Source of the DNA: an uncultured Gemmatimonadales bacterium
Lineage (GTDB): Bacteria > Gemmatimonadota > Gemmatimonadetes > Gemmatimonadales > GWC2-71-9
Length of the DNA: 64,000 nucleotides
Direction: 5' to 3'
Assembly: GCA_947259405.1 (NCBI GenBank)
Contig: CAMYLY010000007.1
Location: 1-64,000 of the forward strand
Shown: positions 7,707-54,563 of the stretch, in pieces
Layout of the letters: each line of letters starts with the position of its first letter
Numbering within the stretch: the stretch's first letter is position 1
The notes under the pieces: model-generated
What the model was told of the DNA's origin: nothing
The model's input: only the letters and a program-made list of their open reading frames with translations
Databases searched by the model: none
Translations under genes and position numbers: made by a program

Positions 7707-7861
7707 GGAATACCCGGTGGTATGCTCAGTGGAGGCCGGTGACCGACATGGGTTTTGAGCCACAGGAGTTTTGTGGCACTGGAGGCCGGCGGTGTAGCGG
7801 GTTTTGGAGAGCATGCTTCTTGAGAGGAAGGGGAAGGCGGAAAAGGGAAAGGGGAAAGGGG

Positions 7862-7896
7862 AAAGCCGAGGCGGGAGAGATCCCGGCCTCGGCTTT
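7862..7896 (-). terminator. Hairpin terminator of RNA unit A
   Basis: Eleven-bp outer arms AAAGCCGAGGC/GCCTCGGCTTT enclose a GGGA...TCCC inner stem. The same hairpin with small compensated changes ends units B, C and E. A purine-rich tract at about 7826-7861 lies beyond it. Confidence 0.75.
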
Positions 7897-7981
7897 CTTG
7901 CGTGGCGGCAGATGCCACTGAAACATCGCAACTGTCTTAATCTAGCCCTCGCTCTTCGGTTCTCCAAGATGGCGCGGTGGG

Positions 7982-8065
7982 TGCCGACGGTGAGATTCGA
8001 ACGCACGCGGGCCGAAGCCCAGAAACTTGCGATGTTTCCGCGTCTGCCAATTCCGCCACGCCGGC
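7982..8065 (-). tRNA. Class II tRNA-like gene, Leu-type body, nominal anticodon CGC
   Basis: The folded body is exactly 84 nt: acceptor GCCGGCG/CGTCGGC (one G-U), Leu-type D arm GCGGAATTGGCAGACGC, anticodon stem GAAAC/GTTTC with loop ATCGCAA, variable arm GGGC-TTCG-GCCC, T loop TTCGAAT with one T-stem mismatch, and discriminator A. CCA is not encoded; CCCACC follows. By canonical numbering the anticodon is CGC (an Ala codon reader) on a Leu-like body. It could be a decayed or repurposed tRNA rather than a working one. Confidence 0.65.
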
Positions 8066-8164
8066 ACCACTTCGTTCGATTCGGCGGCCATGGCATTTCT
8101 GACGCGGGCCCAACGAGTCTCCATCGAAACCGCGCGCACAAGGTGTGTTGGTGAGGTGGCTAGA

Positions 8165-8196
8165 GTGGGATCTGTTTGTTGCGTGTGATGCCCAAT
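8165..8196 (-). promoter_or_regulatory. Promoter-like block of RNA unit A
   Basis: Reading on the minus strand, TTGGGC is followed after about 15-17 nt by ACAGATCCCAC. Equivalent blocks stand at the same place before units B (TTGGCC), C and E (TTGACC), sharing the core CGCAANANAACGATCCCAC. The transcript start is inferred near 8161. Confidence 0.5.
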
Positions 8197-8270: not shown

Positions 8271-8413
8271 ATTAACGCACGGCGCGAGGGAAAAAGAGAA
8301 GATCGAGGCGGGAGAGATCCCGGCCTCGGCTTTCTTGGCGTGGGGGGCTTGCTCGCCGCTTTCGCATCACGGGTGTATGTTCGCGGCGACACCTCGCCTG
8401 AGCGTGGGACCTC

Positions 8414-15005: not shown

Positions 15006-15044
15006 GAAAAGCCGAGGCGGGAAGATCCCGGCCTCGGCTTTCTT
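15006..15044 (-). terminator. Hairpin terminator of RNA unit B
   Basis: AAAAGCCGAGGC pairs with GCCTCGGCTTTCTT around a GGGAAGATCCC inner stem. It is the same hairpin as in units A and C. Confidence 0.75.
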
Positions 15045-15128
15045 GGCGTAGCGGGAGACGCTACGGAGACTTAGCAAGTACGTGAAACCTATGCTCGGCC
15101 TACGGCCCCGTGCAAGTGGCGCGGTGGG

Positions 15129-15212
15129 TGCCGGCGGTGGGACTCGAACCCACACGAGCTTGCGCTCCGAGACTTGCTAAGTCTGTACGTCTGCCAATTC
15201 CGCCACGCCGGC
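15129..15212 (-). tRNA. Class II tRNA-like gene, Leu-type body, nominal anticodon AGC
   Basis: An 84-nt body with perfect acceptor stem GCCGGCG/CGCCGGC, the Leu-type D arm, variable arm GAGC-GCAA-GCTC, T arm GTGGG-TTCGAGT-CCCAC and discriminator A. The anticodon stem CAGAC/GTCTC has a mismatch at its base, and the loop is TTAGCAA, which puts AGC (an Ala codon reader) in the anticodon position. CCA is not encoded. All other stems are well formed. Confidence 0.7.
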
Positions 15213-15313
15213 CACCACTTCCTTCGATGTCGGCGGCCATGGCATTGCGACGTGGACCTCACAAGTCTCCATCGAAACCGCGTGCACAAGGTGTGTTCGT
15301 GAGCTGTTTGGCG

Positions 15314-15343
15314 TGGGATCGTTCTATTGCGCGTGATGGCCAA
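15314..15343 (-). promoter_or_regulatory. Promoter-like block of RNA unit B
   Basis: TTGGCC followed by ATCACGCGCAATAGAACG and then ATCCCAC on the minus strand matches the blocks before units A, C and E. A degenerate palindrome (GCGTCCTTCAAACGCGCC) lies just upstream at 15352-15369. Confidence 0.5.
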
Positions 15344-18212: not shown

Positions 18213-18235
18213 CTCGCACGACGGCGGGCAAAACG

Positions 18236-18270
18236 AAAGCCGAGGCGGGAACGATCCCGGCCTCGGCTTT
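18236..18270 (-). terminator. Hairpin terminator of RNA unit C
   Basis: AAAGCCGAGGC and GCCTCGGCTTT form the stem around GGGAACGATCCC. It is nearly identical to the terminators of A and B. Confidence 0.75.
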
Positions 18271-18359
18271 CTTGGCGTGGCGAAACACGCTCCTCACAAG
18301 TCTGACGATTAACCCAATCTAAACTCGGGACGATGCCACGCGCAATTGACGCGGTGGGG

Positions 18360-18443
18360 TGCCGGCGGTGGGATTCGAACCCACACGGACTTGCGTCCCC
18401 AAGATCGTCAGACCTGTGCGTCTGCCAATTCCGCCACGCCGGC
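18360..18443 (-). tRNA. Class II tRNA-like gene, Leu-type body, nominal anticodon GAC
   Basis: The 84-nt body has perfect acceptor (GCCGGCG/CGCCGGC) and T (GTGGG-TTCGAAT-CCCAC) stems, Leu-type D arm, variable arm GGAC-GCAA-GTCC and discriminator A. The anticodon stem CAGGT/TCTTG is weak (a T-T closing mismatch and a G-U), and the loop CTGACGA places GAC (a Val codon reader) at 34-36. No encoded CCA is seen. Confidence 0.7.
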
Positions 18444-18544
18444 CACCACTTGCTTCGATGTCAGCGGCCATGGCAATGCGACGCGGGCCCAACGGATCTC
18501 GATCGAAACCGCGGCACAAGATGGGTTGGCAGGCCGGTGAGTGT

Positions 18545-18575
18545 GGCATCGTTTTCTTGCGGGTGGTGCTCACAT
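18545..18575 (-). promoter_or_regulatory. Promoter-like block of RNA unit C
   Basis: ACCACCCGCAAGAAAACGATGCCACAC on the minus strand aligns with the blocks before A, B and E; the -35-like half (TGAGCA) is the least conserved. An imperfect GGACGGTA tandem repeat follows upstream at about 18590-18632. Confidence 0.4.
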
Positions 18576-18739: not shown

Positions 18740-18753
18740 AACACACGGAAAAA

Positions 18754-18976
18754 GAGAGCCGAGGAAGGAGCAATCCCAATCTCGGCTTTCTCTGGCGCGG
18801 CAACCGACGCCGCTGAAACATCGCAAGCACCTGAATCTAGCTCGCGCTCGGGCGTTCACCAAGATGGCACGGTGGGTGCCGACGGTGAGATTCGTTGCGC
18901 AACCGTTAGGCAAGCAGAGCAAGCATCACGACCAGCGATGCGCAGCTCAACTCACACGGGCCGAAGCCGTGAGATG
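18754..18976 (-). pseudogene. Broken copy D of the tRNA-like RNA unit
   Basis: A decayed terminator hairpin (18754-18791), the small hairpin, an antisense segment identical in its core to copy A (TTGCGATGTTTC), and the 3' part of the tRNA body (acceptor strand and T loop, about 18877-18894) are recognisable. At 18895 the match stops for about 58 bases, then resumes with the variable-arm sequence CACACGGGCCGAAGCC (18953-18968). It then stops for good, with no anticodon, D arm, leader or promoter. Confidence 0.7.
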
Positions 18977-18994
18977 CGTGAGGGCGACGCATCG

Positions 18995-20308
18995 TCAACC
19001 GCGGAGCGCCCATCGGACCAGGTTGGCAAACTTGGGCGGCGTCCCCTGCATCAGGATTCCGACGCGAAAGATGCGTCCGCCGGCCCAGACCAACAGGATG
19101 AGGGTCAGAATGACGCCGATGAGCCCGACCCACGGTTGCCATGCGGGTACGCCACCGGGGACCCCCTGTCGGAGCAGCATCAAGAGTGGTGTGAAGAGGG
19201 GGAAGAGCGACATGCCGGTGGCGAAGGCCGAGTTCGGGTTCATGACGATGGGCATCAGCACGAACATCGGGATCAGCACAGGGAGGATGCTCGGGAAGAC
19301 CATCGACTGCGCCTCGGTGGCGTCGTTGCATGCGGAACCAAGGGCGGCGCCAAGCGCGCCAAACATCAACACCGCCGCAATCATGTAGGCGAGGAACCAC
19401 GGCACGATGTCGTACGGGATGTACTCACCGTAGCCGAGATAACGCACGGTCAGGATGCCACCCACGAGATAGACCGACGCGGCCGTGAGCGACACACCCA
19501 CACCGCCCAACAGCTTGCCCATCATGAATTCGAAGGGTCGCACGCAGCCGAGCATCACCTCGGCGATGCGCTGGGATTTTTCTTCGGTGACTGCTTGCAG
19601 CAGCGGTGAGGCTCCCATCATGATCATGAGGAGCATCAACATCACGGGGACGAGGGGGAGCAGTAGGGCTTGCAGTTCGGTGCGACGCTCGGCGCCCGTG
19701 ACTTCACCGGTCTCGGGGTCGAGCGACACGAGCCCGAGACCCTGCGGGGTCATCCAGTCGAAGAGATCGGGCACGATGGTCGGGTCGACGCCGGCGTCCA
19801 TGAGTCGCAGGCGGCGGAGTTCGGTGTTCAACGGGCGTTCGATCCACTGCCGCACCTCGTCGATTGCCGGATTCTCCGCGTAATACCGCGCTCCCGCTCC
19901 CGCGGAAGCCTGCCTCGGATGGATCACGTCCGCACCGATTTCCAGCACGGCGTGCAACGCCCCCCGTCGCACGCGGTTCGAGAGTTCCAACAGCTGCTGT
20001 GTCCAATCCTCCGCGGGCGCGACGAGCTCGATGAGGTACGCCGGCTTCGTCTTCTTCCCGCTCTCCGCGTCGACGACCTCGGTCTCGTTCCGTGACTGTG
20101 CCGCTCGCCGGAGGACGTCGCCGATCACCCCAGATCGATCGATCACGGCGATGCGCTTGTCGCTCGTATCGACGCGGTCGCGAAAGAACGCCATGCCGAT
20201 CGCGCTGCCGCCCATCACGACGGGCGCCAGGATCAGCCCGAGGATGAATCCCTTGGTCTTGACGATCGCCTTGTACTCGCGTTGGGCGACCCGCAAGATC
20301 TTACGCAT
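18995..20308 (-). CDS. ABC-2 type transporter permease (NatB-like)
   Basis: This is a 437-residue permease. The start at 20308 (MRKILRVAQREYKAIVKTKGF) overlaps the end of the ATPase gene by 8 bases, typical for this pair. One N-terminal membrane segment (FILGLILAPVVMGGSAIGMAFF) is followed by an exported loop of about 200 residues, then five or more C-terminal segments. The segment EEKSQRIAEVMLGCVRPFEFMMGKLLGG carries the EKxxRxxE signature of NatB/YhaP-type ABC-2 permeases. With the adjacent ATPase it forms an exporter, classically of Na+ or small compounds; the substrate here is unknown. Confidence 0.88.
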   Translation of the reverse strand: MRKILRVAQREYKAIVKTKGFILGLILAPVVMGGSAIGMAFFRDRVDTSDKRIAVIDRSGVIGDVLRRAAQSRNETEVVDAESGKKTKPAYLIELVAPAEDWTQQLLELSNRVRRGALHAVLEIGADVIHPRQASAGAGARYYAENPAIDEVRQWIERPLNTELRRLRLMDAGVDPTIVPDLFDWMTPQGLGLVSLDPETGEVTGAERRTELQALLLPLVPVMLMLLMIMMGASPLLQAVTEEKSQRIAEVMLGCVRPFEFMMGKLLGGVGVSLTAASVYLVGGILTVRYLGYGEYIPYDIVPWFLAYMIAAVLMFGALGAALGSACNDATEAQSMVFPSILPVLIPMFVLMPIVMNPNSAFATGMSLFPLFTPLLMLLRQGVPGGVPAWQPWVGLIGVILTLILLVWAGGRIFRVGILMQGTPPKFANLVRWALRG

Positions 20309-54234: not shown

Positions 54235-54271
54235 AAAAGCCGAGGTGGGTTAGAACCCAGCCTCGGCTTTT
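54235..54271 (-). terminator. Hairpin terminator of RNA unit E
   Basis: AAAAGCCGAGG/CCTCGGCTTTT form the outer stem. The inner stem TGGGTT/AACCCA replaces GGGA/TCCC of the other copies, with compensated bases. Confidence 0.75.
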
Positions 54272-54358
54272 CTGGCGTAGCAGAAGACGCTACACAAGCC
54301 TGACAAGCCTCAATCCAAGTCTAACTGTGCGCTTCGATGCCAACAATGGTGCGGCGGG

Positions 54359-54442
54359 TACCGGCGACAGGATTCGAACCTGTATGGGCTCTCGCCCGGA
54401 GGCTTGTCAGTCCTCTGCGTCTGCCAATTCCGCCACGCCGGT
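54359..54442 (-). tRNA. Class II tRNA-like gene, Leu-type body, nominal anticodon GAC
   Basis: The 84-nt body has acceptor ACCGGCG/CGCCGGT (an A-T first pair replacing G-C, compensated), Leu-type D arm, variable arm GGGC-GAGA-GCCC, T arm ACAGG-TTCGAAT-CCTGT and discriminator A. The anticodon stem GAGGA/GCCTC has an A-G closing mismatch, and the loop CTGACAA places GAC (Val) at 34-36. CCA is not encoded. Confidence 0.7.
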
Positions 54443-54533
54443 ACCGCTTCCTTCGATTCGGCGGCCATGGCATCGTGACGCGGGCCCGACAAGTCTGCAT
54501 CGAAACCGCAGGTGCAAGGTGTGTTGGCTGGTG

Positions 54534-54563
54534 CGGGATCGTTTTGTTGCGGGTAAGGGTCAA
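54534..54563 (-). promoter_or_regulatory. Promoter-like block of RNA unit E
   Basis: TTGACC, then CTTACCCGCAACAAAACGAT and CCCGC on the minus strand. It has the best -35 match of the four copies. A GATGGCTGAAGCCATC palindrome lies upstream at 54590-54605. Confidence 0.5.

Follow-up and report, generated by a model that had tools for sequence, protein, structure and literature searches.

What kind of RNA joins a tRNA body to a tail that is antisense to the anticodon arm of that same tRNA? The locus raising this question lies in a 64-kb stretch of Gemmatimonadales DNA, analysed here at its full length and called the window, whose minus strand carries the intact units A, B, C and E and a broken one, D (Table 1). 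A sequence-only reading of the window had described the four intact units at these places, with 84-nt class II bodies and with tails complementary to their own anticodon arms over 12, 13, 15 (including one G-U pair) and 12 nt in A, B, C and E, respectively. The positions and the ARAGORN predictions, which call all four bodies as class II tRNAs of 84 nt with the anticodons CGC, AGC, GAC and GAC, agree with that description, and the antisense lengths were reproduced exactly. In an Rfam scan RF00005, the tRNA family, matched three of the four bodies at gathering level (B, C and E) as well as six units from other genomes, and it was the only Rfam family that matched the units, in the window or elsewhere. 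We likewise found no described RNA class with such a layout, as had been claimed. Features that the earlier description did not contain are a promoter between body and tail, antisense that reaches the acceptor stem, non-Leu anticodons on a tRNA-Leu body, and unit D.

Table 1. Features of the units in the 64-kb window
Feature	Position	Strand	Remarks
Unit A, tRNA-Leu-like body	7982-8065	-	anticodon CGC (reads GCG, Ala); ARAGORN
Unit A, antisense sRNA	7860-7931	-	anticodon arm paired by the first 12 nt, TTGCGATGTTTC
Unit A, conserved leader	8066-8196	-	presumed tRNA promoter region
Unit B, tRNA-Leu-like body	15129-15212	-	anticodon AGC (GCU, Ala); ARAGORN, RF00005
Unit B, antisense sRNA, hairpin and terminator	15007-15079	-	13 nt on the anticodon arm
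Unit B, sRNA promoter	15086-15115	-	-35 TTGCAC, spacer 18, -10 TAGGTT
Unit B, leader	15213-15340	-	
Unit C, tRNA-Leu-like body	18360-18443	-	anticodon GAC (GUC, Val); ARAGORN, RF00005
Unit C, antisense sRNA	18235-18309	-	15 nt pair with the anticodon arm, including one G-U
Unit C, leader	18444-18568	-	
Unit D, degenerate fifth copy, full span	18747-18999		
Unit D, orphan sRNA	18755-18829	-	5' segment CTTGCGATGTTTC fits the anticodon arm of unit A
Unit D, tRNA-body remnant	18830-18999	-	5' half lost; T-loop insertion of about 54 nt (about 18895-18948)
Unit E, tRNA-Leu-like body	54359-54442	-	anticodon GAC (GUC, Val); ARAGORN, RF00005
Unit E, antisense sRNA, hairpin and terminator	54236-54311	-	12 nt on the anticodon arm
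Unit E, leader	54443-54554	-	
Terminator remnants and REP-like palindromes (CGACGCTGAAGCGTCGG) adjoining units	8304-8347; about 18205; about 18740		

The units had been taken for members of a dispersed RNA family, and the searches bear this out. Using blastn against 100 relatives, we recovered homologues with the same layout and different loops, and a covariance model of the cloverleaf plus terminator (R1), built from 17 sequences, was then run on 102 genomes of the family and 395 of the phylum. With this model nearly all full-length units scored at least about 102 bits, and ordinary tRNA-Leu genes about 100 bits and below. The search gave 66 antisense-bearing units in 37 Gemmatimonadota genomes, 62 of them in the 36 genomes other than that of the window. 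Besides this set, two genuine units were present in a MAG labelled Deltaproteobacteria (G418; L150, L154, L161), which may be mislabelled, mixed or a true case outside Gemmatimonadota; a 16S search across the genome set, G418 included, gave no match in any genome. Among GTDB representatives, a pattern scan picked up Gemmatimonadota MAGs and the same Deltaproteobacteria-labelled MAG (L150), the remaining matches outside Gemmatimonadota being ordinary tRNAs. The phylum of Consotaella (L153), with 399 genomes searched, yielded only true tRNA-Leu genes above 104 bits and no unit. Scoring was done on 67 units with readable loops, with 1 to 8 units per genome and the highest numbers in G053 (eight) and G022 (six). 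Three units (L074, L075 and L077, from G250, G234 and G287) form a distinct subgroup within another family of the class, with GCC anticodons, for Gly, and an acceptor stem that differs from the rest (GCCCCCG); the sRNA of L074 tracks the acceptor change too (CACGG).

Loop and tail were claimed to covary in a way that simple duplication does not explain, and the enlarged set strongly supports this. Antisense of at least 11 nt to the unit's own anticodon arm (range 11-25 nt) is present in 66 of the 67 units, the exception being L076, which has none, so that the outcome that would have told against the claim, independent variation of loop and tail among homologues, is not what we found. With G-U pairs allowed, the longest run across the 67 units averaged 16.4 nt on the unit's own arm versus 8.1 nt on the arms of other units, and the proportion of Watson-Crick pairs per paired position was 92.3%, compared with 48.7 +/- 1.3% when partners were shuffled (maximum 53.3% in 1000 shuffles). 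Removing similar arms, which left 45 units, hardly altered the result (92.3% versus 49.1%). All 66 of these units pair the three anticodon positions (34, 35 and 36), using as many as five pair types at one position, and 63-66 of them pair positions 28-31 of the 5' stem. In control sets the longest run averaged 7.3 nt for ordinary tRNA-Leu genes (n=30; maximum 9) and 7.8 nt for 46 other tRNAs. Non-cognate arms, shuffled partners and ordinary tRNAs together rule out chance or simple duplication as the source of the match.

The antisense extends back across the D-arm to the acceptor stem, mirroring about 36 nt of the tRNA, 27 of them exactly on average. Taken alone, the D-arm/acceptor part scored above 95% of shuffles in only 33 of 66 units, indicating looser conservation than in the anticodon arm. 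Co-folding and alignment indicate that the hairpin of the sRNA is also derived from antisense of the D-arm and acceptor, and the simplest origin for the whole sRNA would be an inverted duplication of the tRNA 5' half. Predicted duplex energies separate own pairs (-35 kcal/mol) from other pairs (-17.6), and in genomes with 3-8 units the own pair was predicted to be the strongest in nearly every row; the sRNA of one G034 unit (L119:10783-10983), for example, reached -48.8 with its own tRNA and -36.9 with the next best tRNA of the genome. Among the paralogues of one genome the 5' segment of the sRNA varies, always following its own anticodon. The orphan sRNA of unit D is predicted to bind the anticodon arm of unit A at -29.6 kcal/mol, versus -22.0 for A's own sRNA.

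The earlier description treated the tail as part of one RNA, and here only the match between tail and loop stood, since in nearly every unit a sigma70-type promoter lies between body and tail with its predicted +1 on the first antisense base, which makes the tail a separate sRNA gene. The promoter has the form TTGACT-N17-TAnnnT, and the distance from the -10 element to the first antisense base is 3-9 nt, mostly 5-7; in unit A the elements just upstream of the sRNA are -35 TTGGAG and -10 TAGATT. Scored by offset, promoter strength peaked at 7.05 at offset 0, the antisense start, compared with about 4.3 far away and about 4.6 (4.58) in shuffled sequence. The predicted sRNA is ~76 nt long and consists of the antisense segment, the hairpin and a terminator stem of about 14 bp. 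The region ahead of the tRNA was less clear: the leader has GGTTAC/GATGAC near -110 and a peak of TAnnnT between -85 and -80, and its best overall promoter score equalled that of shuffled sequence, so no clear promoter for the tRNA half emerged. In most units a leader stretch about 60 to 50 nt upstream of the tRNA resembles the antisense segment, with a weak excess over chance and with a perfect 12-nt copy in L081 as the strongest case; it may represent a lid in cis or else an old antisense copy.

The bodies closely match the host tRNA-Leu(CAG) outside the anticodon arm, as compared in G034. The LeuRS elements A73, C2:G71, U8, A14, A15, GG and U48 are present in 57-66 of the 67 units, those without them being mostly units with T-arm insertions, and G3:U70, the AlaRS signal, occurs once among the units. 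As class II Leu-type tRNAs (RF00005) the bodies therefore have the cloverleaf, the model match and the LeuRS elements and lack the Leu anticodon: the anticodons are for Ala (30), Val (20), Asp (4), Gly (4), Glu (3), Thr (2) and Pro, Ile, Arg and Ser (1 each), and Leu accounts for 0/67. In 12 ORFs of the window, the targeted codons average 40 per 1000 versus 16 for the average sense codon, and many of the top ranks are among them (GCG 1, GAC 2, GAG 3, GCC 4, GTG 5, GGC 7, CGC 8 and GTC 9). Leu codons make up 9.1% of use, yet no Leu anticodon occurs; the probability of this under usage-weighted drawing is 0.0017 if the units are independent, which they are not fully. Position 34 is C or G in 65/67 units and position 33 is T or C, with C33 in place of U33 in 15/67 loops, where it could weaken decoding. 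Since ValRS reads A35/C36 and accepts A73, the Val-type units, which have all three, could in part be charged with Val and be harmless. The loops otherwise retain a functional anticodon-loop form, and this, together with the targeting of frequent codons and the retention of LeuRS elements, speaks against the suggestion that the variable stretch is a guide displayed on a tRNA-shaped scaffold. The elements scored are those reported for E. coli, where a review lists A73, A15-U48, G18G19 and A20a, together with tertiary contacts, as determinants of Leu identity and states that the anticodon does not belong to them (PMC9976931).

We consider it probable, at roughly 60%, that each unit encodes a missense tRNA carrying leucine together with an antisense RNA dedicated to restraining it, the two forming an RNA-RNA module resembling a toxin-antitoxin pair. 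From the layout we infer transcription of both genes, charging, mistranslation, toxicity and neutralisation, as follows. Gene 1 would produce a tRNA in which a non-Leu anticodon is set in a tRNA-Leu body, and LeuRS would charge it with leucine, as expected because bacterial LeuRS ignores the anticodon; Ser and Ala bodies share this indifference to the anticodon. The leucylated tRNA would then insert leucine where frequent codons call for Ala, Val, Asp, Glu or Gly, and would thereby be poisonous. Gene 2, just downstream, would yield from its own sigma70 promoter the ~76-nt RNA, whose 5' ~36 nt are antisense to most of the tRNA 5' half and match it most closely at the anticodon arm; hairpin and terminator come after this segment. 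This sRNA would pair with the anticodon arm of its cognate tRNA or the precursor, opening the D-arm and acceptor and blocking decoding, folding or charging. Should synthesis of the sRNA stop or fail, the short sRNA would be lost and the more stable tRNA freed to act; new codon specificities would arise by coupled change of the anticodon arm and the antisense.

Units in which only one half survives bear on this proposal. An insertion of roughly 40-65 nt at a single T-loop site interrupts the tRNA in unit D and in L105, L121, L123, L127, L134 and L138; several of the inserts contain inverted repeats, that of L127 being REP-like (GCGGCTGAAGCCGC), and a small, site-preferring palindromic element may inactivate these tRNAs. 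In L224 (G026:C9) the whole tRNA body is gone between the leader and the 3' end, and in L229 (G106:C64) most of it is replaced by a REP-like palindrome, the antisense and the upstream region being kept in both, which makes them possible orphan antitoxins. A broken tRNA beside an intact sRNA, as in D, L224, L229 and the six other units with T-loop insertions, is the asymmetry that a toxin-antitoxin pair would leave, in a search not designed for tRNA-only remnants.

The units sit among varied chromosomal genes without a common partner. The most frequent neighbour families included no transposase or integrase, which disfavours a mobile element, and in an empty-site comparison the sole near-identical flank sits at a contig end. 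Searches for carriage by phages or plasmids likewise found none, every match being tRNA-Leu-like and covering about 40% of the query. No aminoacyl synthetase was found among the 25 most frequent neighbour families in either set, and among the commonest families there was neither a Cas gene or CRISPR link nor any defence gene besides Ser/Thr kinases. A link to defence islands was dismissed, the PADLOC matches being to kinase-type models (PD-T4-6 and similar) that in fact represent Ser/Thr kinases. Repeats like the palindromes that adjoin the units in the window occur in many copies in the genomes of the genus of G026, and in three places (L225, L226 and L227) the hairpin-plus-terminator end of the sRNA stands alone just 3' of protein genes, as if reused as a terminator.

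Some observations count against a poison. Ala or Val codons are three quarters of the targets (50/67), and leucine is a mild replacement for either; L076 lacks antisense, and the promoter of the tRNA half is not clear, both of which weigh against a toxin-antitoxin reading. The sRNA might instead hold a missense tRNA low until stress frees it and the proteome is diversified without killing. The prevalence of mild changes fits such regulated mistranslation, as do the chromosomal sites among varied genes without mobile-element neighbours and the fact that Actinomycetes keep a mistranslating tRNA, tRNA-ProX, whose role is unknown (PMC11415595). We nevertheless regard it as unlikely: the most-used codons are targeted, so that even a mild replacement would be costly, Asp, Glu, Gly and Arg codons are targeted as well, and broken tRNA halves recur.

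One proposal of the sequence-only reading was a single RNA alternating between an open and a closed anticodon loop, a cis switch in which the tRNA transcript would extend as far as the terminator and its tail would fold onto the anticodon arm. Inspection without a formal scan revealed no terminator between the halves, which share a single one, so a long read-through transcript with pairing in cis may also exist, and cofolding agrees with the pairing. As the principal mode of action we consider this very unlikely, because the sigma70-type promoter between the halves starts at the antisense and because sRNA halves persist with that promoter where the tRNA half is gone.

More doubtful still is that the tRNA is a decoy, baiting an anticodon nuclease or another tRNA-attacking effector, with the sRNA tuning its level. 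Many anticodons and several copies per genome would suit a bait, but a decoy would tolerate the loss of LeuRS elements, which are kept, the genuine tRNAs for the targeted amino acids have other bodies, and the neighbourhood holds no defence genes besides Ser/Thr kinases. Least credible is that the sRNA truly targets mRNAs and is soaked up by the tRNA-like RNA, for although spacers of tRNA precursors act as sponges for some sRNAs and the order of 5' segment, hairpin and terminator is like that of trans-acting sRNAs, the 5' segments of paralogues diverge in one genome while tracking their own anticodons, and LeuRS identity and frequent-codon anticodons would be needless.

How does the putative missense tRNA with its antisense RNA compare with known systems? 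As in type VIII systems, in which RNA opposes RNA, both parts would be RNA genes, the sRNA by its predicted promoter and its terminator, and the antitoxin is predicted to be specific to its own toxin. Type I antisense RNAs of the hok/sok type are likewise short, with their own promoter and terminator, and are presumed unstable beside a stable target; the target in our units differs in being a tRNA that encodes no protein. The SdsR/RyeA pair is similar in that toxin and antitoxin are both small RNAs and base pairing brings about neutralisation (PMC6610125), but these are made from opposite strands of one locus, whereas the antitoxin here would come from a separate downstream gene on the same strand that an inverted duplication probably produced, and its presumed target, the toxin, is a tRNA. 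In CreTA, too, an RNA toxin hits translation through a tRNA and the antitoxin is RNA (PMC8501985); CreT, however, sequesters a tRNA, and CreA represses transcription via a CRISPR effector. The nearest natural tRNA is tRNA-ProX of the soil bacteria Streptomyces and Kitasatospora, found with ProRSx and causing mistranslation when expressed in E. coli (PMC11415595), which also combines the body of one amino acid with the anticodon of another. It has a class I Pro body, A34 and A33 and a dedicated ProRSx, and no antisense RNA is described with it there; our units, by contrast, have a Leu body, ten target amino acids, an antisense partner (66/67) and no synthetase among the commonest neighbour families. 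We found no account of an antisense-controlled tRNA toxin, or of a mistranslating tRNA joined with an RNA-RNA pair, in the open-licence papers searched, and other descriptions are possible.

The units thus look like a previously undescribed poison-and-antidote pair made of RNA only. That they constitute a new all-RNA class of toxin-antitoxin system, with a leucylated missense tRNA acting at the most-used codons as toxin, an anti-tRNA born of inverted duplication, and coupled diversification to new codons, is a proposition we hold to be evenly balanced. Since gene finders would label the units as extra tRNA-Ala or tRNA-Val genes, as ARAGORN does, the tRNA gene sets of Gemmatimonadota are likely misread. 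If the proposed reading is true, these cells hold code-breaking tRNAs, each restrained by a matched antisense RNA; a tRNA would serve as a toxin and as a source of regulated missense translation, and the family would represent a natural, covarying RNA pair that gains new specificities inside one genome.
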